Positions 1 through 18,873 are shown, numbered from the stretch's first letter. The stretch is DNA of 29,545 nt from a virus (IMGVR_UViG_3300025732_000195:1-29545), one strand, 5' to 3'. Made by a program: numbers and translations. The notes: generated by a model from the letters alone, not told the origin.

Positions 1-3000
1 CATAGTACTGTGCATCAAATACTTCAAGATCAAATCCAAATCTGCCCAGTGCATAATCCCACAGCTCTGCTGAGAATTTAATAGTGCCATCTTGTAACAC
101 CACACGTTCCCATCCGGTGTCAGTGCGCAGATAAATTTCGTACTTGCCCTGGGCATTGGCTGTAACTTTAACCGAGCTGCCAACGTCAACTGTGAGCGTA
201 CTCAACGCTGCGTAGTTTGCAACTTCTGTGATTACCTTGGTACTGGGGTTGTATCCTGGGCGGTTCCATACAATGTAACTCCAGTAGTCTGGGGTGTTGT
301 ATCCTTGCACACTGGTCAGCACCAACACACGTTGTCCTGCTGTAACGTCACTGTTTTGTACAGTGTAAATGGTCCACAGACCTCGATTGTCGCTGTCAGA
401 AACCACTAGGTATTTGTAACCAATGGGTATAGGACCATTGGGATTGCTCCAAATTGGTTCTTGGAATCCTAGTATTTCTTGAGTTGCCACACGCAGATTC
501 CAGTTGGTTACTGTTACCCCATTTACTACTGTTATTTGACTCGGCTCAGGTTCGCTGGAATTCAGCAAGTTAAAGATTCTTGTTTCAACAATAGGGTATT
601 GTGCTAATATTGCATTAGCTTTAGTGAGATAATTCTTGAGTGCGGCAAAACGATCCACAAACATGCTTTGTCTTGGACGGAACTGCACACCATAACGTTC
701 GGCTGGACTTAGATTAGGGTCCGGCACCAAATTACCAAAAGTGTCTACTCCACAAAAACTATCTAGGAATTTTCGGTACAGATTTGAACTTAAAAACCCG
801 TCTGCGCGATCCTGTGGAATTAATTCATATTCCACGTGAACATTGTCATTGGTCAACTCACGATCAAACTCAATGCTGATAATGGTGTCACTGGCTTCAA
901 TATAATCAGCACTATTATACAGTGCAATGGTACTGGCATTGATAGGTGCCATGTAGGCTATGCCGCTGGCACGAGGATCTTGAATGTATGATGCTACAGT
1001 ACTAGCTGGTAATGTTTTACCCAGTTGTGTGGCAGTGACTGTGATGCCTCGTACCCAAAAATAATATTCAGTAGCAAATGTTCCGTCTACGGTAAGTTTA
1101 GTATTAACAGTATAAGACGCAGTATTCAACGGTACGCCTTCGCCGGTGTAGCTGCCTGGTGGTTGATCACTGACTACCCACTGATACACATCAACTTCGC
1201 TGCCCGGGAACAACTGTGCCCAGCGTCGACTTGCGTACACTATTGAATCTTGGTTAGGATCAATAAATCTTAACGAACTAACGTCCCACCACAATTCGCC
1301 TATATGTTCTGCGCCCCAGGTGGTTCCTGTGATATTTACAAAACCAACATTGTAGGATGCAGGATCTACAGCACCAATGTAGTCAAGATTCTGTCTAGCG
1401 GCTCCTAGTATTCTACCTTGCAACGGATTGATAAAATCTAAAAATTCTGACTTGGCACTAGTGATACGATCGTACAAAAATACACTGTTCAATAAACGAA
1501 TGTCTACTACAGGCTGCTGTTGTCTTAGCACTGTCCACGACGGTGTACGAGTAGCGTTTTCAAATACAAATACTGCGCCAAAATCAGCAGTACTGTCACT
1601 GTAGTCGTTTTTGGGTGCGCCGGCCATGAGCACACCAGAAGTATAGTTTACTGCTGTGCCAAAACCATCATATGGTGCAACATCTGCATTGTTGATCTGT
1701 TGTCCAAAAACAAATTTGCCCGGATTGGTTATCAATAGTGTTGAGCTAGGGAGATAATCGTATGTGTATACTGATCCACTCTGTACAATAATTGAAAAGA
1801 AAACAGTACTGCCAGCATCAAAGAAAGTGGTTCCATCGTCAAATTCTGCTTCTAGATATAGCGTACCTTGTGGTGCGCCTACCACAAGGTTGACCGCAGA
1901 ATCATCAATGCTTAAACTGGCACCAAATCCTGCATATTCTGTGGGATATGGACTGGTGATTGTTTGAGTCCAAACAAATGTTTCAAACCCTAAATCGTCA
2001 AATGTTGAGCCTATGGTACCGGGTGCTACTTGAAGTTTATTAAATTCTGGAGCAGCATCGGAGTTCTTCACGCTGAGCGTTAAATATCCAGCGGCATCAA
2101 CTGTGGCCAATACGTTTAATACCGACAGTGAAATTTGTTGTGCTAATGCACGAACTTCTACACTGGCCAACACTGTAGTTGACTCTAATTGAGTCCAATA
2201 GGCTGTATTGGTCAATGCTGTAAATGCAGGTACATTTTGTATAGAAACGTAGATTTGTGCAGTACTGCCACTTGTGTTGTAGACCACAGTGTTGACGTCG
2301 TATCCAGTGGATGATGACCAAGACCCAGGTACTACAACCTCAATGTTGTTTACACAAATAGTATCGCCGTTGTCAAGGTCGGCCATGGGTATGGTGCTGG
2401 TAATAGTACCATACACGCGACTTTGGTTAACAAAACGCTCAACTACGCCACCTTTGAAAACTTGTTGACTACTCTGTGGCTCTCCTACATACAAACTACA
2501 GTTGTTGCTGCAAATGTCTGTGGCTTGACCAAAGTTTGAGAACTCGGCTATAATGTTTTGGTCAATTTCTTGAACCTGCTGAAATTGATTGGTTTCTATT
2601 TCAATTATGTCACCTGTGACCAAGTCAGCATTTATAGTAATAATGTTACCATTTACAGTGAATGTATTGATTAAGCCTGGACCGGCATCTACACTGTTTT
2701 GTTGATTGATCAAAAACTGACCGTTCAGCAACACGCTTACTGGTCCAGTGACTGACCCAAGCACTGTGAAATCAATTGTGCTGCCGTCGGTACCATAGAT
2801 AAATTTTTGAACACTGCGGTCAAATACATAAGTTGACCCAGCTTCGGTGAAAGTTTCAACTTCGTTTACTGTTATAGTCAAATTATTGACGCCGGTTCCG
2901 CCCAGTGATGTTCCTAGAATAGTTATAGTATCATTGACTGCGTAGTCTTGCCCACCACGTACTACTGTTACTACATATGACGAGTCACTTCGACTAACAT

Positions 3001-6000
3001 CAAATTTAGCACCAAATCCTGACCCAGATGTGCTGTACTGACTGAGATTACTGTAAGCAGCCGAGCCTGCTGCTGCCAATCCCGTACTGCTCACTGTGTC
3101 AATGGCATTTGCTATGGCTTTGTAAGGTGTACCAATCAATACCTGGCGTCCGTCTGTGGTGCAGCATACACTGTGTCCAAATCTATCTCCGGCAGTGAGT
3201 CCACCCGTGACATCGCTAGAGTCAATAGTGTAAACATAAGTAAAATATTCTTTGGCAGACACAACCAAGATGTCTGCACTGATAAATGATATCAAAAATG
3301 TTACCGTTGTGCCGGCAAACGTATAATCAAGGTTGGGTCGTAGTAGATTACCGTTTAGTTTGATACTGAATGAATAAATGTTATCAGTTTCTACTGTGGC
3401 CAAGCCCAATCTACGACCATTGGCGTCTAGATCATCTGCTAAGTTTTGTGTCACAGCAGTGTATGGAATTTGATAACTGTTGTATCTTGCAAATTCAATC
3501 AACGTTTCTTCTAGCACAGTGCCCGAGCCCGTAGCTGATCCAGTAGCGGTAAAGGTAACACCCACTGTGTTTGAAGCAGCGCCTATTGAAACAAAATCTG
3601 TGGTACCCACAGTTAGAATAGTGTATTCTGTTCCAGGTACAATAGCGGTGGCATTAACCAGCCCTGGAGTATTAATAAAAGTCACTGTATTAAGATCAGT
3701 AATAGTGTAATCTACTCCCACTGTTTGAACCTGTCTGTTTAGAGTGACTTTCAATTGATATATGTTGTCAATTTGAATTGAATTATTGATATTCCAGGAT
3801 TTAGTTGACCCGTCGGCAAACACCTTTAATTGCTGCTGTTGCCAATCAACCTGACCATAGGCATGTACTTGATTTGCACCTGGTGCTCCTACATATATCC
3901 AGCGTTCGTCTTGGCTGACTGCTACAGAATATCCCATTTCTCCTGCTACAGCACGATCTGGTGCTGTAGGCGGGGTTAACAATTGCCATGTGGTATAAGG
4001 AATGCTGCCTGGTTCGCCAAGAAGAGGATCTCGGAAAATTACAAAAGCATAGCCTACATTAGCAAGACTGGCGGTACCTTGACTGGCACTGGCTCCAGCG
4101 GCGGCCCAAGTTTGGTTGCCAAAATCAGCGGCGTTGCCCAAGCCTCTTACGCCGGTGGTTTCCACTGTAAGTATTGAATCGCTTGTGCCAATGGGGCTGA
4201 CTGGTATGTATTGGTCTCCATAACTTTTGACATATACATAAATCGCACCGTACTCTGTGCCAGAACCAAATCCATATCGGGGACTACCCACTAGAGCAGC
4301 CAGTCTATTGCGGGCTTGCGCCACACTGGCACCATACTGTTCGCCCGCATCTAGCAACACAGGATTCAATGAGATAATATCAGAAAATACACTGTTCTTT
4401 TGTAAAACTTCCCATAGGCCTGAGCCGTTGTTGTCTACCCAGACTTTGGCACCTGGTAGAATATTGTTGGCATATGGCAAATTGATCACATCGCTGGCCT
4501 GGTCCACACGCATAGTCTGTAAGGTGAATCCCAGTCCTAGTCCATTGGCTACCACACGATCGCCAGTAAAATTAAACGCTATATTCACTGTGGTCAAATT
4601 TGCCACTGATAATACCTGATATACACCGTTAATTTCAGGGTCAAAGAATTTAATAATTAGTTTATTGCCTGCTGTCAAGCCATGTTGAGCGTTAAAAATC
4701 ACACGGCTTGTGCCATCTAAGTTGTCGCAAACGTGCTGGATTACACCAGGTACAGCTTGGGCACGATATATGTTCCAGTCGTAAGAGTTGACCTTGGCCA
4801 CCCATATACTGGTTCCCACTTGAATAGCATCAATATTGGCAGCAAGGCTGGCTGCATTCTCAATGTCAAATACTGTGATATCAACATCTTCAAGATTTAC
4901 ATAACCAGCACTTGGCAGAGCCGTATCTGTTGGTAAGTCCGTGGTTACTGGCAAGATATCAGTGGATGTTAATGCAAAACTTTGTCGCCACACATCACTG
5001 AAGAAGATAGTTTGATCAGCTTCACTTGCCTGTTGTGGATAAATTACTTGTACTAAACTAGGATTGCTATCTAACAATGCGCGATTTAGCCTTAGTTCAA
5101 AGAAACTACGGTTTGCATTGGCACCATATACTGCACGTTGCACTGCCCAATTTTCATAGATGTCATAGTCTGCAGATTCTTTTCCAAGATTGGCTTGTTT
5201 GAATAGTTCTGCCGCAAGTATAGTACCTTTAGTTCTAAGGAATTGTCGGTATACATTTACTTGACTAACATCGTCTAAATTCAACGCAGCCATGTATTGG
5301 CGAGGTTTAAATCCAATCAGACCATATGCCAACAAATCGTTGTCTGATTCAATATTGGCTGTGTTAATATTGTAGCTATTAGCTAGTTGATTGGCTTTGT
5401 TGGCCAAGTTAGGTAGTAAACCTAGTTCAATTTGAGTGTAATCGCTTTGGGTCCAAACATTAAAATCAAATTTGTCGGTAGGTTGCACAATGGTCAGTGC
5501 TGACCAATAGACATTTTTATATTTGACAATTTCGCCTTTGCTATAGGTTCGTAAACCAGTCCATTCTTGAACATTGTCTTGATTTAATATAAATCCTGGA
5601 GTATCAACACTTCCAGTCCAATCTGAGGTGGTAAGTGCCACCAAAGTCAACCGACTTTGTCTTGCGCCGGTCACCGGATCATAGATCAAATCTCCAAACA
5701 CACTTTGATTGTTTAAAACAATCATGTGTTCGTAATTGGTAAATCTCATATCAATATAACTGATAGCATCTAGATTTAATGGTTCAACAGAGAACCTATT
5801 GCCTAGTCTAACAATATTGAGTGAACGCTGTGGTATTTCTTGTGAATTTTGATTCAACAGCAAGTTTTCTGTGGTTTCGACGTTGATGCTATCAACCACA
5901 GCAAGTGGTCTAGTAATTTCTAGTTTGGCAGCCAGTGGATTAAGATTGATAATTGCATCTTGACCCCAGCCTTGCTGACTCCAATACAAAAATTCATTGA

Positions 6001-9000
6001 TCATGCGCGGCCAATCTAACACATAACCATTGGCGGTGTTGGTAAATGCCAATCCTTGTGTATCTAAAAGTTTACCGTAACTGGCCAAGAAATCACACAC
6101 AGTAGTTTCGTTGCTGAATACAAATCCATATGGTACTTGTATCACAGTATCAGTGTAAAATGTAGGAATACGTACGGTGATACCACCCGAGCTGTAAGTA
6201 GCCAATTTGCCCACAGCCTGGCTTTGCAGAATGTTAAAATAAGGCTGCGAATTACCAAATCCAAACACAGCATAACCATTGGCAACTTTTTGCACAGCCA
6301 CGCTACTGTATCTCACTTGATCAAAAGGTTGATTCTTGTACAACAAAATGTCATAACTTTGATCAGGAATCAACAAAGCAGTGTTGGTTGAATTAGGACT
6401 AGATTTTTCTGTAAACAACTTGATATATTGTTTGTCACTAAATGACGCCATACGATAGCACAATCGTACATCTAGATTTTTAAGATCCGCAGTCAATAAG
6501 TCAGTTGAATCAATGCCAGTCTGACGATTATAATCCACAATCCAATTGATATAACTGGCCTTGCTTGTACCATTGCCATATACTTCAACGCCGTTAGCGT
6601 CTAAACGATAGCGATCATCAAGTAGATATTGGTCGTAGTCTAAATTGTATCGATATCTATCACGATCAGCGAACAAAGCAAAAAACTTTGCTGGTCGTGT
6701 TACCGCCAGCACATGCATCACAGAAAATGGATACGATGAACTATTGTACCATGATGCTTCAACCGGGCCGCCGTCGCCTAACGCCCAACTCTTAGAAAAT
6801 TTACTGTTAAGACCTGTATTCAAAGGAGTAAATCCTACCACAGAATTAAGCGGGCTCAATAAATTGCCTTCGCTGTCGGTAGGAATTACCGAGGTCAACC
6901 CTGGTCGCACATAATTTGGGACTGTGTAGGGTGCAACAGGATCAGCCACTAAACCAATTTCTAAATCGTCCCATAACACCAAGTTGTCAGAAGTGTAAGG
7001 GGCCGGACCATAACGATCTTGCCACCAGGCAGGCTCATCAGTTAATCCCAACATTTCCCACGGTGTTAGGCTAGGTTGTTCTGTATCGTAAAAATACCGA
7101 TAAATTCCCCGCCAGGCACCTAACAACGGTTGATTGTCAAGGCGATTGTTACTGCTACTGTAGTTGTAGGTAAATTCGTTGCTGGCCAAATAATTTTGCT
7201 GATTATAGTCTAGTTTATTCCATCCACAGTAGGACAAGAAATCACTATTAAAGATAGTGTTGATTTCTTCAAACGTGTATCCTGTGTCGCGAAACTGCCC
7301 AGGTAACACATCATCTATAGTGAGCGGCACTGGATTGTCATCTAGTTTAAGATTATTATAAATTCGTGTTTCAAATTCCAATAACACATCATCGCGAATG
7401 TCATCAAACACAGGAGTGGTACTACCATCATGGCCTAATATAAATTGTGCTGTTCCATTACTGGTTACCTGAGTGATCAACGCTGGTTTCCAAGAAGGAT
7501 ACAGTCCTAATTTGGTAGGTGTGTTAGGTAGAAAACTTCCATAAGTGGTGTTGTATTCATTGATCAGTATTATATCTCCTGGTACCAATGGAGACAACAC
7601 AGTGATACGTGGACCGTCAGTGGCCACAGTATAGTCTGTACCTCGAGTTAACTGCTGACCATTGAGATATACCAAAAGACCAAGATAATTTTGAGTAGTA
7701 AAATCATACACCTGTACAGTATCAAAAACATTGGTGGTGATAAAACTCACAGTGTAAGAATTGCTGGCATAGGTTATACCAGCAGGAATCATGTCGCTCC
7801 AATAAAATGGTTGAGTATCTAGTTTGCCCAAGGTCACATTTTGTATAGCAGTATCAAGTACTTGTGCTGTGGTTTCAAATCCAAGGTTTTGAGTTAACAC
7901 TGAATCCAGCATTTGTGCTTTAAATTTGGTATATTCGCGGCTGTTGTATTGCATAGCGGCAAAAATATTAAAGTCACTGCTACGCATGAAATATCCGGCC
8001 AGCGTCAATGGTGAGCTCTGTTGTAAGATAACTAGACCGTAAGGAATTATGTTGCCAAGATCTCGAGTGTTGTTGGCACCATTGACTGGACCTTGAAGAG
8101 TTTGCAGATTTTCGCAGATGCTTTGATAATGAGTGCGAATAGTTCCCAGTGTAAACTCTTGTGAGTTTGAGTTTAACGGATTACTTTGCAAATTGTTAGG
8201 TACTTGATAAAATGCAACTTTACTGGTTTGATTGCTTAATACCAGGACTTCTACAATATCTGTCAGTTCATAGGTATTGAGTAAAGTTATAGTAGTACTG
8301 TTATCAGTGGTAGTATAGGTATATGTGCTGGGATCTATAAAAATACTTCCTACATATATTTTAATCACTGGTACGGCGATAGATGTTTGAGTCAATGCTG
8401 CTACATCTAGTTTGAGTGTAGCACCTGTGTATGAAAACTTAAACTGCTGATAAAGTTGTTGATCCACTGCGGCTTTTTGCCACCCTATTAACTTTTGATA
8501 ATTGATTCGGCTAGAGTATTCTCTTACAGACCCAGAACTAATGTCTGATGTAACACTAACGTTGTCAACAACATACAAGAACGTATCAACATACAAATTG
8601 TTGTCAAAAACTATGTCGCCAACGTTGTTGATATTCAAATACTTAAGAGGAAACTGCAAAATTGGGTCAAGAATACCTGTGTCACCCACAGCATAACTAA
8701 ACAGCTTTGATCCTGCAAATGTGGTTGATTGATATTGTGTGCCATCTCCAAAACTCACGCCATCAGAATTATAAATATTGAACAATGGTGCTTGTTGTAC
8801 TGAAGTTTTTTGTTGGGCTTCGACCCATTCAATTCCGTTGTACCAAAAAGTTTTTCCAGCAATGTCAGTGCCGTTGATACACACTGTAGATTCATCTAGT
8901 AAAACCAATCCGTCAGTGGCCTGCGTCAGGGTAATAATAGGTTGTGCTATCAACGGATCTACAGTATCTGGAGTCACAAAGCTCACGATATAAATTTTGT

Positions 9001-11470
9001 TGCGCACAGATGTATCTTCATCTGCTGCAAAAATAACTCGTGTGCCTTCTACAAAAGTGTAACCAGCGGTAGTGTAACTGGTAGATCCTTCGATGTTAGA
9101 AAAAGCATCTGTGGCTTCAAAATCAATAATATCAACTGGCGCTTTGCCTGACGTTCCCATGTTCCACAGACGCATTCCTGGTCTGAATTGAATAATTGGT
9201 CTCTTGGCTCTGTAGTTGTTGTCCAATACTGCGGTAGTGTTATTGTACTCAGCCGTGGCATTGAGTACATCAATATGGAACCAACGATTACTTCTAGACC
9301 ATGCATTTAAATCTTTACTTGCACGATTAATGGTCAAATAGTCTGGTTGAGCAGGTTCTGAAGCTATAGTACTGTCGTCTGCATCTTCTACATAGAGTTC
9401 TGGCACAACATAATTTGTTGTAGGCAAAAGTTCAATTGCAGTACCTACACCACTCACGTAATATTCTCTATTGCTAATAGCCGTAGCCACTGCGGTGCCT
9501 ATACCGCTGGCCAACACCACCGCAGGACCACCTTCCACTGCGCTAACAGTAAATTTTATCCCGTTAGCTGAAATTGATCTTACATAGTAGGTCTGGCCGG
9601 GATTGAGACCGCCCAGTGACGGTGAAGAAAATACTACTTGTTGACCTACGTACAAATCTGTAGCATTGTTGTAGGTAATATAGTTTGTACCAGCTTCGGT
9701 GGCTGTGTATTCAAATTCAGACAAGCCAGATGCATAACTGCTAGGAGACACATCACCAACGAAGCGAACCCGCAAGCCGTTGCTGAATGTTACACCATTG
9801 GGACTGGTATAATTTTGACGACCTAGTATTTCGTCCACATATATCACATTGGTTTGTGTTTGTTCTATTAATTTAATACGTCCAAATATTTCTGGGTCTG
9901 TTCCGTCTTGATAATACAAGGTATCTTGTACTGCTGACAATAGAGGAATTTGTTGAAATTGTCCGGTGGCATCTTTGTACCATTGAGTATTACTATAGGT
10001 CAGACCGTATCCAATAGTAAACTTTTCCAACGATGCAATATCAGATACCTTGTTCAATTGTATGTACATGATACCTGCAATGTTTTCGTAACTGATTTGA
10101 TACTTTTGATAGCGTTGATTAGGTGCAATATCAATGGTGTAATCATAAGGCACACTGTCATAGCTGCCTGCCACACCCACATTAGATGGATCATCTATCA
10201 GTGGATCAAAGAAACTAGTACGATACCAGCCACCTGCTTCAGTATCTTCTATGGGGTTGGTAAACACCAGAGTACGACCATCAAGATTTGTAATCCCGTC
10301 AATACCATTGTATTGGTTGATAAATTCGCTGACTGGTTGATTGTTAATTTGTGCAAACTGCATGTCTGTTAACAAATCAACTGTACCAATATTGGTCAAG
10401 TTGTAATAGAAACTCTGTGCGTCTTTGTACGGAACATTAAAAGTAATGGTGCCTAAATCTTCACCGTTATTGATTACTCCCAGTATGTTTCTACTACTGA
10501 TGTTGGGAGTAGCAGGTAACGTTCCTGACACTCCTGGAGCAGTCTGAATCCAAAAACCCGGTCCGGTGCCTGGTGTACCATCAACAATGTTTAAAATACC
10601 TTGCATGCTGCCTTGATTTTGAGCCACATAGTATAATGTATCAGGAGCATCTTGTGGTACTGTAAATGTTACCAGGCCAGAACTGGCACCATTGCGGCTG
10701 ACTCCTTGTGTGTAAGCGTCTCCTGTACCAGTGGTAGCTGAGGTTTTGATCCAAAAAGGATATACTCCATCTAGAGTTAAATTAAACACATAAGTATTGC
10801 CGCGAGCTAGTTCCAGACTAGGATTGTTTTGAAAATCAATTACATAGGCCGTGGTGCCTGAATTTTTTACTCGATAATTAACAGTTTCTTTAGTGTTTTG
10901 GGCAACTTGAAAAGTATAATTGCCACCGCGCACCAATTCAATCACCGGATTGTCACCATTAATGCCAGAAAAACTATAGACCCCATTGGCTCGAGTTACT
11001 GTAAAATTGTCTGAGGTAGGGACGCCCGTAGCTCCAACATCTACCACATCTGGGCCACCAGGTACCCAAAAATATTGTGAAAAATTCACAAATGCATCAA
11101 AATCTACAAAAGGATCCCAGGTATAGTATTCACTAGAGTACAGCCGATCTGGGCGATTGCTGTTACCGCCTTGGAATCCAATAGCATCGTTTAGTCCAGG
11201 ATAGGTAATAGCATTGCGAATCTGGCTGGTTTCAGGTATGAGGCTAACTACTCCAGGTTCCAATTGGTAATTGGCTCTGGTAGCTGTGGGTTCAACCACA
11301 TACTTGTCGTTGGGATTAACTCCCGGGCCCACCGAGCGCCCAATAAAGCCTTGTGTTTTTCTAAAGTTAGGCTCTTGGATCAGTTGATCAAGAGTAGCGG
11401 CCAAAAATTGTTTGTTAGCATCAGTCTGAAAAATTTCAGGAAGAAAATCTACACTACGAACTGTTGCCAT
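1..11470 (-). CDS. Giant baseplate/tail structural protein in the gp7 position (C-terminus beyond window)
   Basis: One reading frame runs from the ATG at 11470 to the left edge, giving at least 3,823 codons; I read most of it in frame and met no stop. The start follows a GGAG ribosome site 7 bases upstream and overlaps the gp6 stop (TAATG). It follows gp6, where T4 has wedge protein gp7 (about 1,000 residues), so a baseplate wedge or peripheral role is inferred. Residues 1-150 are aromatic and Asn/Pro-rich and begin MATVRSVDFLPEIF. Residues about 205-300 resemble a cupredoxin-like fold without metal ligands. The middle (about 1250-2350) is Trp/Tyr-rich with LNG...DYT beta modules. Residues 2377-3286 hold seven FG-GAP motifs with long inserts. 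No signal peptide or catalytic motif was seen. It could combine several T4 wedge or fibre functions in one chain. The structural call is fairly sure; the exact role is not. Confidence 0.85.
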   Translation of the reverse strand, partial: MATVRSVDFLPEIFQTDANKQFLAATLDQLIQEPNFRKTQGFIGRSVGPGVNPNDKYVVEPTATRANYQLEPGVVSLIPETSQIRNAITYPGLNDAIGFQGGNSNRPDRLYSSEYYTWDPFVDFDAFVNFSQYFWVPGGPDVVDVGATGVPTSDNFTVTRANGVYSFSGINGDNPVIELVRGGNYTFQVAQNTKETVNYRVKNSGTTAYVIDFQNNPSLELARGNTYVFNLTLDGVYPFWIKTSATTGTGDAYTQGVSRNGASSGLVTFTVPQDAPDTLYYVAQNQGSMQGILNIVDGTPGTGPGFWIQTAPGVSGTLPATPNISSRNILGVINNGEDLGTITFNVPYKDAQSFYYNLTNIGTVDLLTDMQFAQINNQPVSEFINQYNGIDGITNLDGRTLVFTNPIEDTEAGGWYRTSFFDPLIDDPSNVGVAGSYDSVPYDYTIDIAPNQRYQKYQISYENIAGIMYIQLNKVSDIASLEKFTIGYGLTYSNTQWYKDATGQFQQIPLLSAVQDTLYYQDGTDPEIFGRIKLIEQTQTNVIYVDEILGRQNYTSPNGVTFSNGLRVRFVGDVSPSSYASGLSEFEYTATEAGTNYITYNNATDLYVGQQVVFSSPSLGGLNPGQTYYVRSISANGIKFTVSAVEGGPAVVLASGIGTAVATAISNREYYVSGVGTAIELLPTTNYVVPELYVEDADDSTIASEPAQPDYLTINRASKDLNAWSRSNRWFHIDVLNATAEYNNTTAVLDNNYRAKRPIIQFRPGMRLWNMGTSGKAPVDIIDFEATDAFSNIEGSTSYTTAGYTFVEGTRVIFAADEDTSVRNKIYIVSFVTPDTVDPLIAQPIITLTQATDGLVLLDESTVCINGTDIAGKTFWYNGIEWVEAQQKTSVQQAPLFNIYNSDGVSFGDGTQYQSTTFAGSKLFSYAVGDTGILDPILQFPLKYLNINNVGDIVFDNNLYVDTFLYVVDNVSVTSDISSGSVREYSSRINYQKLIGWQKAAVDQQLYQQFKFSYTGATLKLDVAALTQTSIAVPVIKIYVGSIFIDPSTYTYTTTDNSTTITLLNTYELTDIVEVLVLSNQTSKVAFYQVPNNLQSNPLNSNSQEFTLGTIRTHYQSICENLQTLQGPVNGANNTRDLGNIIPYGLVILQQSSPLTLAGYFMRSSDFNIFAAMQYNSREYTKFKAQMLDSVLTQNLGFETTAQVLDTAIQNVTLGKLDTQPFYWSDMIPAGITYASNSYTVSFITTNVFDTVQVYDFTTQNYLGLLVYLNGQQLTRGTDYTVATDGPRITVLSPLVPGDIILINEYNTTYGSFLPNTPTKLGLYPSWKPALITQVTSNGTAQFILGHDGSTTPVFDDIRDDVLLEFETRIYNNLKLDDNPVPLTIDDVLPGQFRDTGYTFEEINTIFNSDFLSYCGWNKLDYNQQNYLASNEFTYNYSSSNNRLDNQPLLGAWRGIYRYFYDTEQPSLTPWEMLGLTDEPAWWQDRYGPAPYTSDNLVLWDDLEIGLVADPVAPYTVPNYVRPGLTSVIPTDSEGNLLSPLNSVVGFTPLNTGLNSKFSKSWALGDGGPVEASWYNSSSYPFSVMHVLAVTRPAKFFALFADRDRYRYNLDYDQYLLDDRYRLDANGVEVYGNGTSKASYINWIVDYNRQTGIDSTDLLTADLKNLDVRLCYRMASFSDKQYIKLFTEKSSPNSTNTALLIPDQSYDILLYKNQPFDQVRYSSVAVQKVANGYAVFGFGNSQPYFNILQSQAVGKLATYSSGGITVRIPTFYTDTVIQVPYGFVFSNETTVCDFLASYGKLLDTQGLAFTNTANGYVLDWPRMINEFLYWSQQGWGQDAIINLNPLAAKLEITRPLAVVDSINVETTENLLLNQNSQEIPQRSLNIVRLGNRFSVEPLNLDAISYIDMRFTNYEHMIVLNNQSVFGDLIYDPVTGARQSRLTLVALTTSDWTGSVDTPGFILNQDNVQEWTGLRTYSKGEIVKYKNVYWSALTIVQPTDKFDFNVWTQSDYTQIELGLLPNLANKANQLANSYNINTANIESDNDLLAYGLIGFKPRQYMAALNLDDVSQVNVYRQFLRTKGTILAAELFKQANLGKESADYDIYENWAVQRAVYGANANRSFFELRLNRALLDSNPSLVQVIYPQQASEADQTIFFSDVWRQSFALTSTDILPVTTDLPTDTALPSAGYVNLEDVDITVFDIENAASLAANIDAIQVGTSIWVAKVNSYDWNIYRAQAVPGVIQHVCDNLDGTSRVIFNAQHGLTAGNKLIIKFFDPEINGVYQVLSVANLTTVNIAFNFTGDRVVANGLGLGFTLQTMRVDQASDVINLPYANNILPGAKVWVDNNGSGLWEVLQKNSVFSDIISLNPVLLDAGEQYGASVAQARNRLAALVGSPRYGFGSGTEYGAIYVYVKSYGDQYIPVSPIGTSDSILTVETTGVRGLGNAADFGNQTWAAAGASASQGTASLANVGYAFVIFRDPLLGEPGSIPYTTWQLLTPPTAPDRAVAGEMGYSVAVSQDERWIYVGAPGANQVHAYGQVDWQQQQLKVFADGSTKSWNINNSIQIDNIYQLKVTLNRQVQTVGVDYTITDLNTVTFINTPGLVNATAIVPGTEYTILTVGTTDFVSIGAASNTVGVTFTATGSATGSGTVLEETLIEFARYNSYQIPYTAVTQNLADDLDANGRRLGLATVETDNIYSFSIKLNGNLLRPNLDYTFAGTTVTFLISFISADILVVSAKEYFTYVYTIDSSDVTGGLTAGDRFGHSVCCTTDGRQVLIGTPYKAIANAIDTVSSTGLAAAGSAAYSNLSQYSTSGSGFGAKFDVSRSDSSYVVTVVRGGQDYAVNDTITILGTSLGGTGVNNLTITVNEVETFTEAGSTYVFDRSVQKFIYGTDGSTIDFTVLGSVTGPVSVLLNGQFLINQQNSVDAGPGLINTFTVNGNIITINADLVTGDIIEIETNQFQQVQEIDQNIIAEFSNFGQATDICSNNCSLYVGEPQSSQQVFKGGVVERFVNQSRVYGTITSTIPMADLDNGDTICVNNIEVVVPGSWSSSTGYDVNTVVYNTSGSTAQIYVSIQNVPAFTALTNTAYWTQLESTTVLASVEVRALAQQISLSVLNVLATVDAAGYLTLSVKNSDAAPEFNKLQVAPGTIGSTFDDLGFETFVWTQTITSPYPTEYAGFGASLSIDDSAVNLVVGAPQGTLYLEAEFDDGTTFFDAGSTVFFSIIVQSGSVYTYDYLPSSTLLITNPGKFVFGQQINNADVAPYDGFGTAVNYTSGVLMAGAPKNDYSDSTADFGAVFVFENATRTPSWTVLRQQQPVVDIRLLNSVFLYDRITSAKSEFLDFINPLQGRILGAARQNLDYIGAVDPASYNVGFVNITGTTWGAEHIGELWWDVSSLRFIDPNQDSIVYASRRWAQLFPGSEVDVYQWVVSDQPPGSYTGEGVPLNTASYTVNTKLTVDGTFATEYYFWVRGITVTATQLGKTLPASTVASYIQDPRASGIAYMAPINASTIALYNSADYIEASDTIISIEFDRELTNDNVHVEYELIPQDRADGFLSSNLYRKFLDSFCGVDTFGNLVPDPNLSPAERYGVQFRPRQSMFVDRFAALKNYLTKANAILAQYPIVETRIFNLLNSSEPEPSQITVVNGVTVTNWNLRVATQEILGFQEPIWSNPNGPIPIGYKYLVVSDSDNRGLWTIYTVQNSDVTAGQRVLVLTSVQGYNTPDYWSYIVWNRPGYNPSTKVITEVANYAALSTLTVDVGSSVKVTANAQGKYEIYLRTDTGWERVVLQDGTIKFSAELWDYALGRFGFDLEVFDAQYY
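1613..4342 (-). other. FG-GAP beta-propeller domain inside the giant protein (seven motifs)
   Basis: Seven segments fit the FG-GAP pattern (F/Y-G-x-S/A-V ... I/V-x-V-G-A/S-P, often then G-x-V-x-V-Y/F). They lie at 4232-4342 (YGASVAQ...LVGSPR...IYVYV), 4034-4126 (DFGNQTWAAAGAS...VIF), 3857-3943 (GYSVAVSQDERWIYVGAPG), 3122-3187 (DRFGHSV...VLIGTP), 2477-2536 (NFGQATD...LYVGEP), 1871-1936 (AGFGASL...LVVGAP) and 1613-1669 (DGFGTAV...LMAGAP). These are residues 2377, 2449, 2510, 2762, 2979, 3179 and 3268 onwards. The first three are spaced like propeller blades (61-72 residues); later ones are pushed apart by inserts of roughly 130-190 residues. FG-GAP repeats form the seven-bladed propeller of integrin alpha chains and some bacterial surface proteins. 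The motifs are seen; the fold and any binding role are inferred. Confidence 0.7.
10570..10860 (-). other. Cupredoxin-like domain without metal ligands (residues ~205-300 of giant protein)
   Basis: The segment reads LELARGNTYVFNLT ... DGVYPFWI ... GDAYTQGV ... VTFTVPQDAPDTLYYVAQNQ then GSMQGILNI. This follows the layout of small cupredoxin-like domains common in marine phage and bacterial proteins, which usually carry a His in the GHPF segment and a Cys, His and Met in a LYYYCxxHxxM segment. Here the first His is replaced (GVYPF) and the LYY segment has Val/Ala and Gln instead of Cys and His; only Met remains. Metal binding is therefore unlikely and the fold is probably used structurally. A partial second copy (IELVRGGNYTFQV) precedes it. 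Confidence 0.5.
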
Positions 11471-14400
11471 TAAATTACTCCGCTACCAGGGGCAGTACGC
11501 AAGTTGGTACTGGTCAATGCTTCAATTACTTCAATGTTATTGATAGTGGCACCATTAGCAAATATTTCATTTGGCTCTGAGCGTATTTCGTACAAGTCGC
11601 CAAAGTACTTTTGTGGGTTCAACGGAACCAAAACAACTGAACTAATAATACTACCCAAATTACTATGTAGGTAGGCCGCAAGTTCTGAAAAGTAAAAAGT
11701 ATCTCCAAAGTTCCATTTATCAATGCTAAAATATGTATTCATTGCAGCAACTACAGAACTTTTTATTTCACTAGTACTAGCAGTTGAACCGCTAGCTCTA
11801 ATGACTTTAATAGTGGCACGTAGTTCTTGTGCTGCTTTTTGTCCAAACAATGGTTTGAACACAACAGAATTTAAAATAATATTGTCGCTCAGCATCTTGT
11901 AGTTCTGCAGACCTTGATAAGTGGTTGTTAATTCATCAAGGGTCGGGGCGTCAGGTTCAATCACTGTGTCTGTAGTATCCTGAATCCAGTTTTGATATGC
12001 AGTATAATAGGCCAAAGTAACCACATATAAATCAATAATATTAGTAGTGCCTGGATCAATGCGTGTAGTTAAAGGGGCATTGTGTCTATATTGAAAATAT
12101 AAATTTTGTCGACCTGTTTTGGCCAGCCATTCTGTACTGACATCAATCAAGGTTCTTAGTCCTGTGGCGCCCACGCTCAATTGATAAAATGCTTCGTCGG
12201 TGTAGGCATAAAAAATCTGGCCTGGAGACCACTCAGTCTTGGCCAACTCAATATCATCTAGAGTGGCATAGTCACTGACGACTTCGCCCTGAGCTACTAA
12301 AAGATAACGTTGTAAATTATCAAAGTCCACTGTTTTTTGTAGGTATACATACTTTTGCGTAGGGTCTACAGAAGGAGCAACAATGTCAGCAAAAAAATCA
12401 GGGTTGTCAGGTACACCATCGTTGTCACTGTCACGATAACTGACCAGCACTTGAAAATCGTCCACATAGCCGTCAGACTCAACAGGTTGTCCAGTAATTG
12501 TCATGATAATATCTCCAGACAAATGATCGGTAGAGTCAGGTTTGGTGTTTACTGCTAAAACATTAATATAGTCCTTGATCACTGTGCCAGTTCGTGAATC
12601 GTAAATTTGTGATCCATCATAGAAGAAAAAGCGTGTGCTCAATACTGAACCAAAGTAATAGGCTAAGCCACGGAAAGTGATTGTGTAATTTTGATTTTGA
12701 ACCACAAACTGGACCAACCAAGATGCATCTTGATTTGTGCCTGATGTAGATCCTGCGTTGGCTTGACTAAATGCACTGCCAGCCGCTAGGTTGGTACTGG
12801 TGATCAAGTACCAGCTGTAAGGAGTTCCAGTAATATCACCATTACTGTCGTAGCCAATACCAAAGTTACGATTGAGCAAAATTTGTTCAGCCATGGCCTG
12901 TTCCAATGCCAATGGCAAGTCTGAAACAAACAGTGGAATAATAGTATCAACTAGGGCACCAGTTGGTATAAAATTATTCAGCGTGATAGGGCCTGCACCT
13001 GAACTGAGATTTCCAAGTCCATTGTTGTATCCAGTGCCTTGTATGCTCAATGGACTGGCCCAAATTTCCAGTGTTTCGTCGGCGCGACTGGGTGTGCCAG
13101 GCTTGAGTCTATTGTTAGCGTCAAAGTAGTAACCAGCAGGTGGTACAAATTTTATCAAACTGCCCACTGCCACATACCTAAAATTGGTAGTGGTAGTAAG
13201 TCCTACAGGAATTGGGGTACCGTTGGGCCAAGTTGCAGATGTCACTGCATTTCTAAAATAACCAGTTGTTTCATTGGCCAAGGTGGTACTCTGATTCCAG
13301 GTGGCGTCCGGAACCCAGGTAGTGCCGCCATATGTGGGCAGAGTAGACTCAGTTACCCTTGGAAAGTTAGCATAGTAAAACTGCTTCATGGTAGTTTCAG
13401 CTAGGCCAGGTTGTACCTGATTGGAAATCACATCCGCTATTTCATTTCGGTTAGTGTATGAAAACAAAATAGTGGGCAATATGTTTTGTTCCCACAGCCC
13501 GCCATCAGCACCAAAACTGTTGGTGCTAGAATATTTGCCTGTGTTGTCCACAAGGTCAAGATAACGGCTGGTACCAATTGAGGCACGATTCACAGCCTTG
13601 CTTTTCACAATTGAATTGTATTGTGTGTACGGGAAGAGATTGTAGTCTTCGCCGTTGACCATACGATTTTGAGTGTAGTATTGTGCAGGCGCACGTTGTT
13701 TGATTTGATCGATAGTTTCACGTGCCTGGCTATTGCTCACAGGTCTTGTGATACCGCAGGTGAATGTGATGGTTTCTAGATTGCCGTTGCGACTGATGTA
13801 ACTGATGGGAATAGTTACACTCTGCATTTCTTCAGGATTGATAATGTATTGCAATCCGTTTGATGCACGAACATAGGCACGGAACGTACCTACTGGGATC
13901 TCTGAAAACACACCGTCGCCAAACACCAAGGTGATTTGATCATTGGTACGTGATGTCACTGTGTAGATTGGACGCAAAGTGGTTCCAATTTGTTCAGCAG
14001 CCGCTGCATAAATGTTTTCTGTGTATTCCCATTCGCGGTTGATATTGCCCACATTATCCAGCTGATACAACCAACGGTCTTCGTTGTTGACACCTTCAAT
14101 ATTGATGTTTACTGTGCGGTTGCTAATTTTTTCAGCCAAGTTAAAATCTTGATTCTGTAACACACCTTGTTTGAACATAAAAAAGTAACCTGTATTGGCA
14201 GATTGAAATCCCAGTTGATCGTTTCTAAACAAAATGTTAAAAGGCTGGTTCGCTCTTGGACTTGGTTCGTACAAATAATCTGCGCCCACCGATGTAGATG
14301 TCATGGCTTCAAATGGCATGTTTACACCATCAACAGTGGCTGTATAAGGCACAATTGGCAAATAACCAGGTACCAAGTTAATACCATATTCGTCTGTTCT

Positions 14401-14946
14401 TACGCCTAAAATGGTCTGGCGGTTACCGGGACGTCCTACTCGTTGAGTATTAACAAGGCTGGCATTGATAATGGTAGTAAATTGTTCTTGCCAATCTGGA
14501 TTAGTAGGGTCTGCCCAGTTAACTGTGACATTGCTTAAATTTATTCCTTGATAGTCTATAACATTTTCTGTTGTTGTTACTGAAAAAACTTTGAGTAATC
14601 CTTGGGCAGCGGTATTTCGTTTGGCAGTATAACTAACCAAGTTAGCAAGACGCACAACAGAATCCCTACGTTCTGCCGTGTCCATGTAGTTTTCGCGAGT
14701 GTTTAAGTCAGTGCGGAAGGCCAGGGCTTGGCCCATGAAGGCCATGACATCTAGTAATGCAATAAACTCTGACGACTCAATGTAGTCATTGAATGTCTCA
14801 GGATAGTACAAACGCAAATAATCAATAAAACTCTTACGTAGTGTTTCAAAGTCGTAGCTTTGAAAATCGGCTTCGCGATAAGTTTGATAGATCTGTTTCC
14901 AGTCCTCAACTCCAAATATTGCCGTTTGTCTTGTTGTTGTTGCCAT
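11470..14946 (-). CDS. 6: Baseplate wedge protein gp6-like
   Basis: This 1,158-residue protein matches the T4 gp6 wedge family in its N-terminal third: a Tyr-rich start, then SYDFETLRKSFIDYLRLYYP, then IALLDVMAFMGQALAFRTDL and RRDSVVRLANLVSYTAKRN, the helical region common to gp6 proteins. In T4, gp6 forms a ring that joins neighbouring wedges and drives the baseplate change at contraction. It lies between gp25 and the giant gp7-position gene, the T4-type order around gp25, gp6 and gp7. It is much longer than T4 gp6 (about 660 residues); the extra length is mainly beta-rich sequence in the middle (about residues 450-900). The ATG has an AGAGG site 10 bases upstream, and a GATAAATA late-promoter-like sequence lies 21 bases upstream. 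Its stop overlaps the next start by one base. Confidence 0.85.
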   Translation of the reverse strand: MATTTRQTAIFGVEDWKQIYQTYREADFQSYDFETLRKSFIDYLRLYYPETFNDYIESSEFIALLDVMAFMGQALAFRTDLNTRENYMDTAERRDSVVRLANLVSYTAKRNTAAQGLLKVFSVTTTENVIDYQGINLSNVTVNWADPTNPDWQEQFTTIINASLVNTQRVGRPGNRQTILGVRTDEYGINLVPGYLPIVPYTATVDGVNMPFEAMTSTSVGADYLYEPSPRANQPFNILFRNDQLGFQSANTGYFFMFKQGVLQNQDFNLAEKISNRTVNINIEGVNNEDRWLYQLDNVGNINREWEYTENIYAAAAEQIGTTLRPIYTVTSRTNDQITLVFGDGVFSEIPVGTFRAYVRASNGLQYIINPEEMQSVTIPISYISRNGNLETITFTCGITRPVSNSQARETIDQIKQRAPAQYYTQNRMVNGEDYNLFPYTQYNSIVKSKAVNRASIGTSRYLDLVDNTGKYSSTNSFGADGGLWEQNILPTILFSYTNRNEIADVISNQVQPGLAETTMKQFYYANFPRVTESTLPTYGGTTWVPDATWNQSTTLANETTGYFRNAVTSATWPNGTPIPVGLTTTTNFRYVAVGSLIKFVPPAGYYFDANNRLKPGTPSRADETLEIWASPLSIQGTGYNNGLGNLSSGAGPITLNNFIPTGALVDTIIPLFVSDLPLALEQAMAEQILLNRNFGIGYDSNGDITGTPYSWYLITSTNLAAGSAFSQANAGSTSGTNQDASWLVQFVVQNQNYTITFRGLAYYFGSVLSTRFFFYDGSQIYDSRTGTVIKDYINVLAVNTKPDSTDHLSGDIIMTITGQPVESDGYVDDFQVLVSYRDSDNDGVPDNPDFFADIVAPSVDPTQKYVYLQKTVDFDNLQRYLLVAQGEVVSDYATLDDIELAKTEWSPGQIFYAYTDEAFYQLSVGATGLRTLIDVSTEWLAKTGRQNLYFQYRHNAPLTTRIDPGTTNIIDLYVVTLAYYTAYQNWIQDTTDTVIEPDAPTLDELTTTYQGLQNYKMLSDNIILNSVVFKPLFGQKAAQELRATIKVIRASGSTASTSEIKSSVVAAMNTYFSIDKWNFGDTFYFSELAAYLHSNLGSIISSVVLVPLNPQKYFGDLYEIRSEPNEIFANGATINNIEVIEALTSTNLRTAPGSGVI
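11478..11481 (-). promoter_or_regulatory. Ribosome binding site fixing the start of the giant gene
   Basis: GGAG lies 7 bases before the ATG at 11470, inside the last codons of gp6. It supports this ATG as the start and indicates coupling through the one-base TAATG overlap. Confidence 0.65.
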
Positions 14947-14994: not shown

Positions 14995-15372
14995 TTATAC
15001 ATAGGAGGCATTGCGCTGTTGAAAATCAAAGAAAATACTCAACCTCTCGGCATTGGTACTGGGAACCACTGTGAGTTCTATTTGTATTAAAATACCGTTA
15101 TTTTGTGGGAACGTTTGGATGTCGCTGATGTAGATTCTAGGATCACCGCCGGCCACTCGCTGAATTTCTGTTTCAATGGCCTGTTGTAATTCTTCCAGTT
15201 GCGGCTCAAACAGATAATCCCATATCACAGTGCCATAACCTGGTCTCCCAGGCAGTTGTCCTTGGCGAATATTAAACGCATTCAACAAGTCGCGTTTGAC
15301 CAGTTCAAAATTAGTGAGTGTAAATTTTTTAAACTGATTTTGTGTGTTGAATCCAATAAATTTTTGTATCAT
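14995..15372 (-). CDS. 25: Baseplate wedge protein gp25
   Basis: This 125-residue protein belongs to the gp25 / GPW family (T4 gp25 is 132 residues). Family features are the segment DLLNAFNIRQGQLPGRPGYG followed by TVIWDYLFEP, a helix with repeated Glu (LEELQQAIETEIQR), and a beta-rich C-terminus. gp25 is one of the most conserved parts of contractile tails; it links the wedges to the first sheath ring and is thought to trigger sheath contraction. The ATG at 15372 is the only Met and I see no ribosome site before it. A perfect TATAAATA sequence ends 4 bases upstream, so the message from that promoter would start at or beside the ATG. The gene is 17 bases from the stop of the upstream gene. 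Confidence 0.9.
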   Translation of the reverse strand: MIQKFIGFNTQNQFKKFTLTNFELVKRDLLNAFNIRQGQLPGRPGYGTVIWDYLFEPQLEELQQAIETEIQRVAGGDPRIYISDIQTFPQNNGILIQIELTVVPSTNAERLSIFFDFQQRNASYV

Positions 15373-15389: not shown

Positions 15390-17345
15390 TTATTCGCCTG
15401 CCCGTTGACCTTCAATCTTGAGAGATAGTTGATATAATAATTCTTTTATCTGGCGAAATTGCTCAACGATGTATTGAACTAAACTTGCTATTTTACTTGG
15501 CGAATTTGACTGAAAAGAATTAACTACTTGTTTTTGTGATGCACTCAACCGGTCGTAGATAGCAAATACTTCTGAAGCAAGTACAGGACCTTGAGGATTA
15601 TATGCCTGACTAGCAGTTTGAAATTCGTTGTTTACTGCGTCGTATTGTTGTTGAGTAATAAATTGCTGATTTGCTAATGCTTCTATCTTTGTTTTTACCA
15701 CTTCTAAGGCCCGGCCTGCTACATTGATGTATTTGTTTATAAGCTCAACAGATTTGATCACATACGCTTCGCCGTCAGCTTGATTTTCAATTGTTTGTTT
15801 TGGTCCATAGTTGGGTGTGGGAACTTTGTCGTCCCCAATGACTCGGGTGCTAGCAGCATCTACTGTGGCACGATTTACTGTGTTAGAGGATGGCACCGGC
15901 GTGTCTTCTTGTTTGAACGCCGTGGGAATTTTAGTTTGCACCAAGTTCACAGCAAATGCACCGTCGCGTACCGCAGATGAAAACTCTGCTTGTAGCGCAC
16001 CTGTTGCATCTCCAGGTATGGGAAGACCTTTCACAAATGCTTCAGCACTGGGTAAATCTTTTGCAGCATTTAATGCCATGCCGGCAAGACCTTGACTAGA
16101 TAAATTTTGAACGGGCACGCCTACTGCTGCCAGTCCAGCGACACCTTTAGTCATGAGATCTTGTTGTATTTGACTTTGTTTGGGTATGTTTTGCAATAGG
16201 TCTGTGGCAGTCTTTATTCCGTCTTTTCCAGTCCATACCGCAGGACTTTTAATCACATCAGCAAACACATTTGTACCTGCTGCTAGCAATGCTTTTGTAC
16301 CCGGTTTTACATAACCAGCAGTTTCTAATTGTCCAACATCAAGTCCGAATGATCCAAGACCTTTGGTATTGCTTAACACTGAACTGGCTTGGTTTACTAG
16401 ATTTTTAGCCTGTGCCAACACTCCGTTGACTTCAGGTACACTCATGGGTCCTAGTCTGGCCACAGCACCTGCAGGATTAGTACTACCAGCAATTTTAGTA
16501 AAATCCGCAGCGTCGATGGGGCTGGTCACTGAAAATTGTGTGAGTGTGCGATTGATAGTTTCAATACTTTTGATAGCTGTTGATCCCTGTATGCCAGCAG
16601 CTCCTACTAGTGCAGTGCCCAAGCCGGATACCGAGTTGACTGCTGGACCCACAGCGGCTGTAAGTCCTGGAGTAATACCGGCCAATGATCCGCTAATGGC
16701 ACCGCCGGCGGCGCCCAAGCCACTGGCCACGCTGCCTATTACACTATTAAACGCACCAGCTCCGCCATTGACGCCGCCGCGAGCGAATGCCGCGTCAACT
16801 GATGGTATGCGCCCAGTGGTTAGGTCTACCCCAGATGCTGATAGTCTGGATGTAAAACTTCCCACGTCGAGACTGCCGGTTACACCTGCCTGAGCTTGTG
16901 CTACCATGGCCTGTGCTCCGGCCAGGCCGTCTGCAGCTTGTGTTGCGGCGCTTAGTGTTTCACCTGGTTTGAATCCTACTAGGCTACCAGTGTCGGCTTG
17001 TTTCTTGAATATTGCAAATGCCTGCTCACGTGTGAGTCCTGGTGGACCTTTGATGGCAAATGTTTTTGCAGAGCCGTCAGGGTTTGTGGGCACTGATCCT
17101 GTGGCCGGTATGTCAGTTGCTGTTCCTGTGGTGTCTTCAGGCGGGCGCGGATAACCAAGTTGGGTTAAACTAGGCAATCCTCTGCGCAGGCGTTCTCTAT
17201 TGGTGTTGTCCCAGACAATGTAGTCATTGCCAGTATAGGTTAGGTCTTCATCTTTTGTTTTGGAATACAGGCCAGCTTCAAACTTGCTAGCACCTTTGCT
17301 AACACTGGCTTTGAGTTGATCAAGATTAAATGTAAATTCAGCCAT
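15390..17345 (-). CDS. Baseplate-operon protein of unknown function, Gly/Ala-rich core
   Basis: I do not recognise this 651-residue protein. Residues 1-75 are polar and contain GNDYIVWDNTNRERLRRGLP. About 110-160 is helical and includes GLTREQAFAIFKKQ. Residues about 185-260 are a low-complexity Gly/Ala/Ser/Val stretch, followed by more Ala/Gly/Val-rich sequence. The last 130 residues look helical, with many Gln and a YNPQGP turn. It lies between the gp5-like spike and gp25, so it is probably a virion part near the hub or wedge. The ATG has an AGG site 9 bases upstream and lies 1 base past the gp5 stop, so it is co-transcribed. The Gly/Ala core resembles tape-measure or tail-tip sequences, but the gene is short and in the wrong place for a tape measure. 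Confidence 0.75.
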   Translation of the reverse strand: MAEFTFNLDQLKASVSKGASKFEAGLYSKTKDEDLTYTGNDYIVWDNTNRERLRRGLPSLTQLGYPRPPEDTTGTATDIPATGSVPTNPDGSAKTFAIKGPPGLTREQAFAIFKKQADTGSLVGFKPGETLSAATQAADGLAGAQAMVAQAQAGVTGSLDVGSFTSRLSASGVDLTTGRIPSVDAAFARGGVNGGAGAFNSVIGSVASGLGAAGGAISGSLAGITPGLTAAVGPAVNSVSGLGTALVGAAGIQGSTAIKSIETINRTLTQFSVTSPIDAADFTKIAGSTNPAGAVARLGPMSVPEVNGVLAQAKNLVNQASSVLSNTKGLGSFGLDVGQLETAGYVKPGTKALLAAGTNVFADVIKSPAVWTGKDGIKTATDLLQNIPKQSQIQQDLMTKGVAGLAAVGVPVQNLSSQGLAGMALNAAKDLPSAEAFVKGLPIPGDATGALQAEFSSAVRDGAFAVNLVQTKIPTAFKQEDTPVPSSNTVNRATVDAASTRVIGDDKVPTPNYGPKQTIENQADGEAYVIKSVELINKYINVAGRALEVVKTKIEALANQQFITQQQYDAVNNEFQTASQAYNPQGPVLASEVFAIYDRLSASQKQVVNSFQSNSPSKIASLVQYIVEQFRQIKELLYQLSLKIEGQRAGE

Positions 17346-17346
17346 G

Positions 17347-18873
17347 TTATTTTGCCTGTATTTCTACACCAGCCGGAACTGGTACTGCACCTGGTGGCGG
17401 GCTTGGTTTACCTTCTTCGAACGCAATCTCAACATCCACGCCCTTGTTGTGATAAGGATATGGTTCGTGCGTGGGCGCTCGGTTCACAATGCTTTCAAGT
17501 CCTTCGGGTTTGACTATCCAACCTCGGCTGGTATCCCATTCAGTATCGTCTAAGAGTGTTTTGGTCAAGGGTTGTGGTGTGTTCACTTGACCCGCGGCAG
17601 GCCCGTTGAGATCAATGCCGCCTGCTTGTAATACCAGCGCAGATCCTGCGCCCCAGGATCCTGATGAGCTGTTCAATGTCAATGTTCCATCAGCTTTGAC
17701 TCCAATTGTGTTTTTGCTATACAGTGTGATATCTTCCTGTGCTTGAATGGCCAAGAATGTGCCAGACTCTATCTGCATATCTTCTTTGCTTTTCATTTTA
17801 AAATATCGTCCAGCAAACATATTAATATCTCTGTCAGCGTGAAAATTAATATCTCCTTTAGTACGTACATTTACAGAATTTGTAGCATAGACGTCTACTG
17901 TACCTTCAACCCCAAATTCCAACCAGGTTTGACCATTGGCATGCACAATGTAAAAAAAGTTGCCAGAGTCACTCATTGTGATTTGATGGCCAAGACTGGT
18001 TCGCAAACGCAACAAAGCGTTGTTGCCGTCTAGATCACCGTCATCCATAACCAAGCTATGACCACCTATTCGACCAATTACTCTAGCATCACCAGGTTTG
18101 ATTTCTCCTGAATTTAATTTACTTCTAATGTCATTGGGTTTCATGCCACCTTGATAAATGGCTGTACCTGGTGTGCTGATGCCAAACACAGCACTAGGCG
18201 TTTCGCGCTGACTAGAGCTTTTAATTGTGCCGCGCTCAAGATCTGTAATCAATCCTTGTTGCAACAATGCTTGTGCGAGATAACCGTGTACTGGTTTGGG
18301 TTGATCATAAAATCTTGGATTGTTAAAAATACCATCGTTATTAATGTTAATTTCTGACACTGGTAATCTAGGTGCGTCAGCAAAATAAGTTTCTTGATTT
18401 TGATTTTGTATTTCTGCTTGTGTTGAGGATGCTGAACCAATAGCTGGCACCATGTGCCCTAGCCCTTGTTCCGGAACTACCCCAATATAAAAACCCTGTG
18501 AGCGGTCACCATTGACAAATATGCAAATTACAGTTACTCCTACGTCAGGTGGTGTAAACCACATACCATAGCTGGTGGGGTTTCCAGGATAAGCACCAAT
18601 ACCTTGTGTAGCCCCTTGGCTTTGGCTAGGCGGTGTATTACCATAAAATGCAGGCATGTAACTCACAGTAGTCCAGGTAGCTTCGTTACTCATGCTATTG
18701 ATATCTGATCCTGAACTAAAAGCATCAATGTAAACTCGCAATCGCCCCGACCGTGTGGGGTCTACCGTGCTCATTACCACGCCAGTAAATGGCCCAAACT
18801 CCGCAGGTACGCCGCCTCGATCTAGTTTATAATTGCGCGGTCTTCCTCTACTGCGTTCTACATTCTCTGCCAT
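17347..18873 (-). CDS. 5: gp5-like baseplate hub / tail spike protein, no lysozyme domain
   Basis: The protein has 508 residues. Residues about 24-150 form the OB-fold typical of gp5/VgrG spikes (PFTGVVMSTVDPTRSGRLRV ... PDVGVTVICIFVNGD). A central part (about 210-300) carries GHSLVMDDGDLDG and LRTSLGHQITMSDS. Residues about 300-390 have short repeats (DINFHADRDINMFAG, EDITLYSKN, GVKADGTLTLN) of the gp5 C-terminal triple beta-helix that forms the membrane-piercing needle. The C-terminus has an APTHEPYPYHN segment. T4 gp5 (575 residues) carries a lysozyme domain between OB-fold and helix; no lysozyme signature is visible here, so the needle would pierce without cutting peptidoglycan. It follows the putative hub gene by 2 bases and has an AAGAG ribosome site 7 bases before ATG. 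Confidence 0.85.
   Translation of the reverse strand: MAENVERSRGRPRNYKLDRGGVPAEFGPFTGVVMSTVDPTRSGRLRVYIDAFSSGSDINSMSNEATWTTVSYMPAFYGNTPPSQSQGATQGIGAYPGNPTSYGMWFTPPDVGVTVICIFVNGDRSQGFYIGVVPEQGLGHMVPAIGSASSTQAEIQNQNQETYFADAPRLPVSEININNDGIFNNPRFYDQPKPVHGYLAQALLQQGLITDLERGTIKSSSQRETPSAVFGISTPGTAIYQGGMKPNDIRSKLNSGEIKPGDARVIGRIGGHSLVMDDGDLDGNNALLRLRTSLGHQITMSDSGNFFYIVHANGQTWLEFGVEGTVDVYATNSVNVRTKGDINFHADRDINMFAGRYFKMKSKEDMQIESGTFLAIQAQEDITLYSKNTIGVKADGTLTLNSSSGSWGAGSALVLQAGGIDLNGPAAGQVNTPQPLTKTLLDDTEWDTSRGWIVKPEGLESIVNRAPTHEPYPYHNKGVDVEIAFEEGKPSPPPGAVPVPAGVEIQAK

Follow-up and report, generated by a model that had tools for sequence, protein, structure and literature searches.

A predicted seven-bladed FG-GAP_2-type β-propeller inserted in a giant phage tail protein

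The viral contig analysed here (29,545 bases, hereafter the window) carries on its minus strand a giant gene at 2-11470, of which 3823 codons lie in the window, the contig end removing the C-terminus. The full-length protein, of about 5058 residues, is encoded on a contig (L001) that is near-identical to the window. A first-pass annotation had proposed that seven FG-GAP motifs in this protein build an integrin-type β-propeller in a phage baseplate protein. The locus raises the question of whether repeats that are interrupted by large inserts can form one such domain, and what the domain would do in a virion. In a PHROGs profile search the giant protein matched phrog_10938, a virion structural protein family (E=2.9e-270). 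Its conserved body and C-terminal flank place it in this family, and profiles of the flank match eight isolates.

The giant gene is the last of a minus-strand tail block (all features of the window described below are on the minus strand unless otherwise indicated). The block contains a small gp53-like baseplate wedge gene (22188-22487; phrog_7145, E=1.4e-22), a gp5-like gene resembling baseplate hub and tail lysozyme proteins (17347-18873; phrog_13211, E=3.1e-36), a gp25-like baseplate wedge gene (14995-15372; phrog_43 and phrog_261) and, directly preceding the giant gene, a gp6-like baseplate wedge gene (11470-14946; phrog_10646, E=1.4e-281, and phrog_219). In T4 the order is gp53, gp5, gp6, gp7, so the giant gene occupies, in position only, the place of the baseplate wedge protein gp7, directly after gp6. 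By contrast, T4 gp7 is far smaller and is without FG-GAP repeats. No sequence similarity between the two was seen with one single gp7 sequence as the query, hence a weak comparison, and the PDB profile searches likewise returned no gp7 likeness for the giant protein. Comparison of its N-terminus with the gp6-like gene also gave no similarity.

The genes of the phrog_10938 orthologues of cultured phages likewise follow gp25- and gp6-like genes, in the same order (121Q gp582, RaK2, CBB, GAP32, PA5oct gp355, Atu_ph07 gp180 and phAPEC6 gp245). For two of these, presence in the virion is on record: phAPEC6 gp245 (381.88 kDa) was identified in virions by mass spectrometry with 17 unique peptides (PMC7247149, Table 1), and the annotation of PA5oct gp355 states virion detection by ESI-MS/MS. 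The assignment to the baseplate made in the first-pass annotation therefore stands on synteny and on the detection of orthologues in virions by mass spectrometry rather than on a structure; these data identify the giant protein as a tail or baseplate component, its exact position being presumptive. Two further tail-region proteins, of 651 and 1102 residues, are encoded inside the baseplate block at 15390-17345 and 18876-22184 and have no or weak PHROGs matches. Elsewhere in the window, a radical SAM domain protein is encoded on the plus strand at 25644-27236, between a late sigma factor gene and SbcD/SbcC genes.

Translation of the giant gene located all seven FG-GAP-like repeats within two residues of the positions reported earlier, namely at residues 2379 (YGASVAQARNRLAALVGSP), 2450 (FGNQTWAAAGAS, degenerate), 2512 (MGYSVAVSQDERWIYVGAP), 2764 (FGHSVCCTTDGRQVLIGTP), 2980 (FGQATDICSNNCSLYVGEP), 3182 (FGASLSIDDSAVNLVVGAP) and 3270 (FGTAVNYTSGVLMAGAP). 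The strict pattern [FY]G..[VIL][GA][ATSE]P matched four times, whereas 2000 shuffled sequences averaged 0.10 matches and never gave more than 2, and a looser pattern gave nine start positions (the seven blades plus two extra starts), against a shuffled mean of 0.44 and maximum of 5. Across 37 homologues the FG glycine is conserved at 97-100% and the GAP glycine at 81-100% in all seven blades. In Pfam searches the classical FG-GAP family (PF01839) found no match in the window and matched only one of the 37 homologues, but FG-GAP_2 (PF14312) exceeded its cut-off in three stretches of the window protein (E=2.7e-8), was found in five stretches when the propeller segment alone was searched at a lax threshold, and matched every homologue (37/37). 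Thus the proposed FG-GAP profile match was borne out for PF14312 and not for PF01839, and, as judged from sequence, the repeats are of the FG-GAP_2 kind and lack calcium-binding loops. The phage protein differs from the Pfam family in that only three to five of its seven repeats score individually and in that large inserts interrupt them. When the blades were compared with each other by HHalign, using one alignment per blade, blades 1, 3, 4, 5, 6 and 7 were interlinked with best probabilities of 81-91%. Blade 2 remained below 13% and was not linked by profile, and the insert controls scored near zero, except for pairs with a common module.

Structure prediction points to the integrin alpha head as the closest known fold. 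AlphaFold2 modelled residues 2340-3330, with the 37 homologues, at a pLDDT of 78.8 and a pTM of 0.81, and a compact homologue of 757 residues (L031) at a pLDDT of 87.2 and a pTM of 0.87. In Foldseek comparisons with the PDB, integrin alpha heads ranked first for both models. The best 28 hits of the compact model were all integrin alpha, the top one being 9ind_A (E=1.5e-9; TM 0.62 when scaled to the 440 residues of this chain). When PDB sequences were searched with a profile, every hit was an integrin alpha chain, at weak significance (E>=0.11), and a single-sequence search of the PDB with the propeller gave no match. Predicted strands mapped on the alignment yield seven blades of four strands each, in which the b1-b2 loops are 2-5 residues long, invariant in length and indel-free in all seven blades, and in which inter-blade linkers are mostly 13-21 residues. 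The segment has one more W-type outer strand than seven blades need: the extra strand, WEVLQK (residues 2353-2358), precedes blade 1, and WEVLQK and WTVLRQQ are candidate ring-closing outer strands. From the alignment of the whole propeller to integrin heads we infer a closed ring.

At the level of prediction, residues ~2342-3321 (window 1508-4447) thus form one complete seven-bladed FG-GAP_2-type β-propeller with an integrin alpha head fold. The integrin-type propeller proposed at the outset is supported by sequence profile, structure prediction and fold comparison alike, with topology, loop lengths and blade profiles fitting seven four-stranded blades. The domain extends beyond the interval first assigned to it, 1613-4342.

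The domain opens with a KVWVD/WEVLQK hairpin (4349-4447) that is also present in orthologues without the propeller, as VWMF..LWNI in 121Q and KVWID..WAVA in PA5oct. Blade 1 follows at 4190-4348 (residues 2375-2427) and blade 2, with its degenerate motif, at 3971-4162 (residues 2437-2500). Strands b1-b3 of blade 3 (3848-3955; residues 2506-2541) are separated from strand b4 (3224-3247; residues 2742-2749, YFTYVYTI) by a b3-b4 hairpin insert of 200 residues (3248-3847; residues 2542-2741), which holds two modules resembling the T7 tail fibre N-terminal domain and one module termed TDF. Blade 4 is interrupted twice. Its FG-GAP part (3110-3202; residues 2757-2787) leads into a b2-b3 loop module of 98 residues (2834-3127; residues 2782-2879), which is poorly modelled by AlphaFold2 (pLDDT<50) and missing in most homologues (median 13 residues), and strand b3 (2813-2833; residues 2880-2886) is followed by a b3-b4 hairpin insert (2585-2812; residues 2887-2962) and strand b4 (2564-2584; residues 2963-2969). 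In blade 5, strands b1-b3 (2420-2548; residues 2975-3017) precede a b3-b4 hairpin insert (1979-2425; residues 3016-3164) and strand b4 (1958-1978; residues 3165-3171). Blades 6 (1691-1951; residues 3174-3260) and 7 (1508-1690; residues 3261-3321) complete the domain. The b1-b2 hairpin of blade 5 contains two cysteines four residues apart (DICSNNCSLYVG; residues 2986-2990, window 2513-2527) that are invariant in 37/37 homologues and perhaps form a disulphide or a metal site.

The blades are indeed split by large inserts, as had been proposed, and these are orderly, lying mainly inside b3-b4 hairpins of blades 3, 4 and 5 and not between blades. Variable or large inserts are confined to these hairpins, where they measure 141-307, 69-76 and 95-205 residues, respectively, and to the b2-b3 loops of blades 1, 4 and 7. 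Several inserts are modules with further copies at other places in the giant proteins that carry them. A domain resembling the T7 tail fibre N-terminus (PF03906), detected in 7 of 37 members with a best E of 2.7e-6 and weakly in the window itself (E=0.026), recurs near residues 1250, 2550-2700 and 4300-4800 of the giant proteins. The TDF module, a 40-residue unit (YTILTVGTTDFVSIGAASNTVGVTFTATGSATGSGTV), occurs at about ten different places across 51 giant virion proteins, with copies at residues 2613-2652 of the window protein (~3500-3634) and at residues 4492-4531 of the L001 protein, much as a mobile protein module might. A further module, GxGY/GDT, has its window copy in the blade 4 loop and lies mostly at other sites in other members. 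Pairwise identity is 0.53-0.70 in the propeller core, 0.64-0.67 in neighbouring structural regions and 0.41-0.57 in the inserts, indicating that the core evolves like the structural body and most inserts evolve faster.

Integrin propellers themselves accept a domain insertion, the alpha-I domain. The phage propeller, with the seven four-stranded FG-GAP blades predicted here as in the alpha-V, alpha-5 and alpha-IIb heads that are its best PDB fold matches, resembles the integrins that carry an alpha-I domain in tolerating domain insertions. However, it carries its inserts within the b3-b4 hairpins of blades 3, 4 and 5 and not at the alpha-I position, its sequence identity to integrin alpha is ~10%, and its setting is a phage virion protein. 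The DxDxDG calcium loops of integrin blades 4-7 are absent, the phage b1-b2 loops being of fixed length and motif-free. Other traits of an integrin alpha subunit, i.e., thigh and calf domains, a membrane anchor and pairing with a beta subunit, were not found, and the flanks are unrelated.

Searches with the propeller as query found 55 viral contigs; the C-terminal flank, used in the same way, retrieved at least 566 contigs encoding relatives, some reaching up to 225 kb. In the 80 that were examined, a propeller signal was present in all except one (L103), whose available ORF starts just before the flank. Two distant relatives lie in binned marine contigs, one of which (L150) has an FG-GAP_2 hit ahead of the flank. 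By contrast, the giant protein is without the propeller in all eight cultured orthologues (121Q, RaK2, CBB, PA5oct, Vibrio 2.275.O, SCTP-2, Atu_ph07 and RAS14), and their records contain no FG-GAP_2 match anywhere, save in a separate 393-residue protein of Atu_ph07. A tblastn search of phage isolates with the propeller recovered just a weak piece, in phage phiL7.

The Atu_ph07 protein, gp320, is an FG-GAP_2 propeller protein of a related jumbo phage and superimposes on our model with a TMt of 0.66. Unlike the inserted propeller of the window it stands alone, beside tail-sheath genes. Its annotation (L152, 7019-8200) as a streptococcal hemagglutinin is probably wrong. BFVD also contains FG-GAP proteins, from uncultured phages and from giant viruses.

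What occupies the propeller site in the cultured orthologues varies. PA5oct has little there, its KVWID..WAVA hairpin directly abutting the C-terminal flank, and looks like an empty site; the 121Q group has ~80-100 residues, and SCTP-2 and Atu_ph07 have unrelated longer stretches. These comparisons show, at the sequence level, the propeller to be a domain insertion that follows a β-hairpin of the giant protein and is missing from that protein in other jumbo phages. The occurrence of the propeller, or of unrelated domains, at one site in different phages suggests that the site accepts different cargo, albeit in few lineages so far. Among the unrelated occupants, the second distant marine contig (L151, ~7163-9925) has an insert of ~900 residues with E1_FCCH-like and Gp18-domain-like hits. 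No family was found for the long SCTP-2 insert (L057, ~16102-17064); a LamG-like lectin suspected there by eye was dropped, as Pfam gives no support.

Taken together, the best overall explanation, to which we assign a probability of about 0.82, is a complete propeller inserted in a giant tail or baseplate protein at the gp7 position, most likely as a rigid, module-presenting disc. In such an arrangement the conserved core would lie at the baseplate periphery, with the rims of blades 3, 4 and 5 presenting exchangeable modules that might serve docking of other tail or fibre proteins or contact with the cell surface. It could be argued that the repeats are instead separate β-sandwich domains, or a tandem array that merely resembles FG-GAP without forming a propeller, given the stretches of up to 200 residues between blades and the degenerate blade 2. 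Yet AlphaFold2 and Foldseek align integrin heads over the whole length and the four-strand topology and linkers are regular; these model-based results appear to have largely refuted such an arrangement already, and we regard it as highly improbable.

By analogy with integrin alpha heads and their ligands, the propeller itself might be a receptor-binding adhesin whose face binds a host glycan or protein. The fold match, the variable loops and inserts and the hemagglutinin annotation of the Atu_ph07 FG-GAP_2 protein are all in keeping with this idea. However, that label is annotation only, the calcium-binding loops are absent, and the conservation of the core comes close to that of the structural body, which is unusual in a receptor-binding head. 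Indeed, a core with body-like identity and inserts of lower identity favours a conserved disc with variable modules over a fast-evolving receptor-binding head. We therefore prefer the role of scaffold with modules over direct receptor binding by the propeller, a preference we hold at roughly even odds, and consider the adhesin possible but rather unlikely. The same conservation, the retention of the propeller throughout the environmental clade and the virion location of the orthologues would also suit an assembly or ruler element inside the baseplate wedge that is buried and never touches the host. Because eight cultured phages make tails although their orthologous protein lacks it, however, the propeller appears dispensable for the wedge as such, and the variation and exchange of its inserts are what one would expect of exposed parts; we judge a buried element the less likely of these two alternatives to the module-presenting disc.

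Our search of the open-access literature, which does not prove absence, found no paper in which a phage baseplate protein is said to contain an FG-GAP propeller. The fold is known, and its setting in a phage tail-tip protein is apparently undescribed. Little is understood of the large structural proteins of jumbo phages, and the propeller offers a concrete, testable part for how a baseplate is built or aimed. It is universal in the examined environmental relatives with the region covered and absent from all cultured relatives tested. The window protein shows that a whole propeller can be inserted into a phage structural protein and that recurring modules can then be loaded into its blade hairpins, a principle similar to that of the integrin I domain. 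We tentatively suggest, at somewhat less than even odds, that the giant protein at the gp7 position in jumbo phages contains, behind one hairpin, a cargo site that takes different large domains according to lineage, and that one abundant environmental clade has filled it with an integrin-like propeller bearing swappable modules, a nested presentation platform through which the tail tip would contact the host. In view of its presence in environmental phages and its absence from their cultured relatives, the propeller may act as a platform with which phages construct or direct the tail tip.
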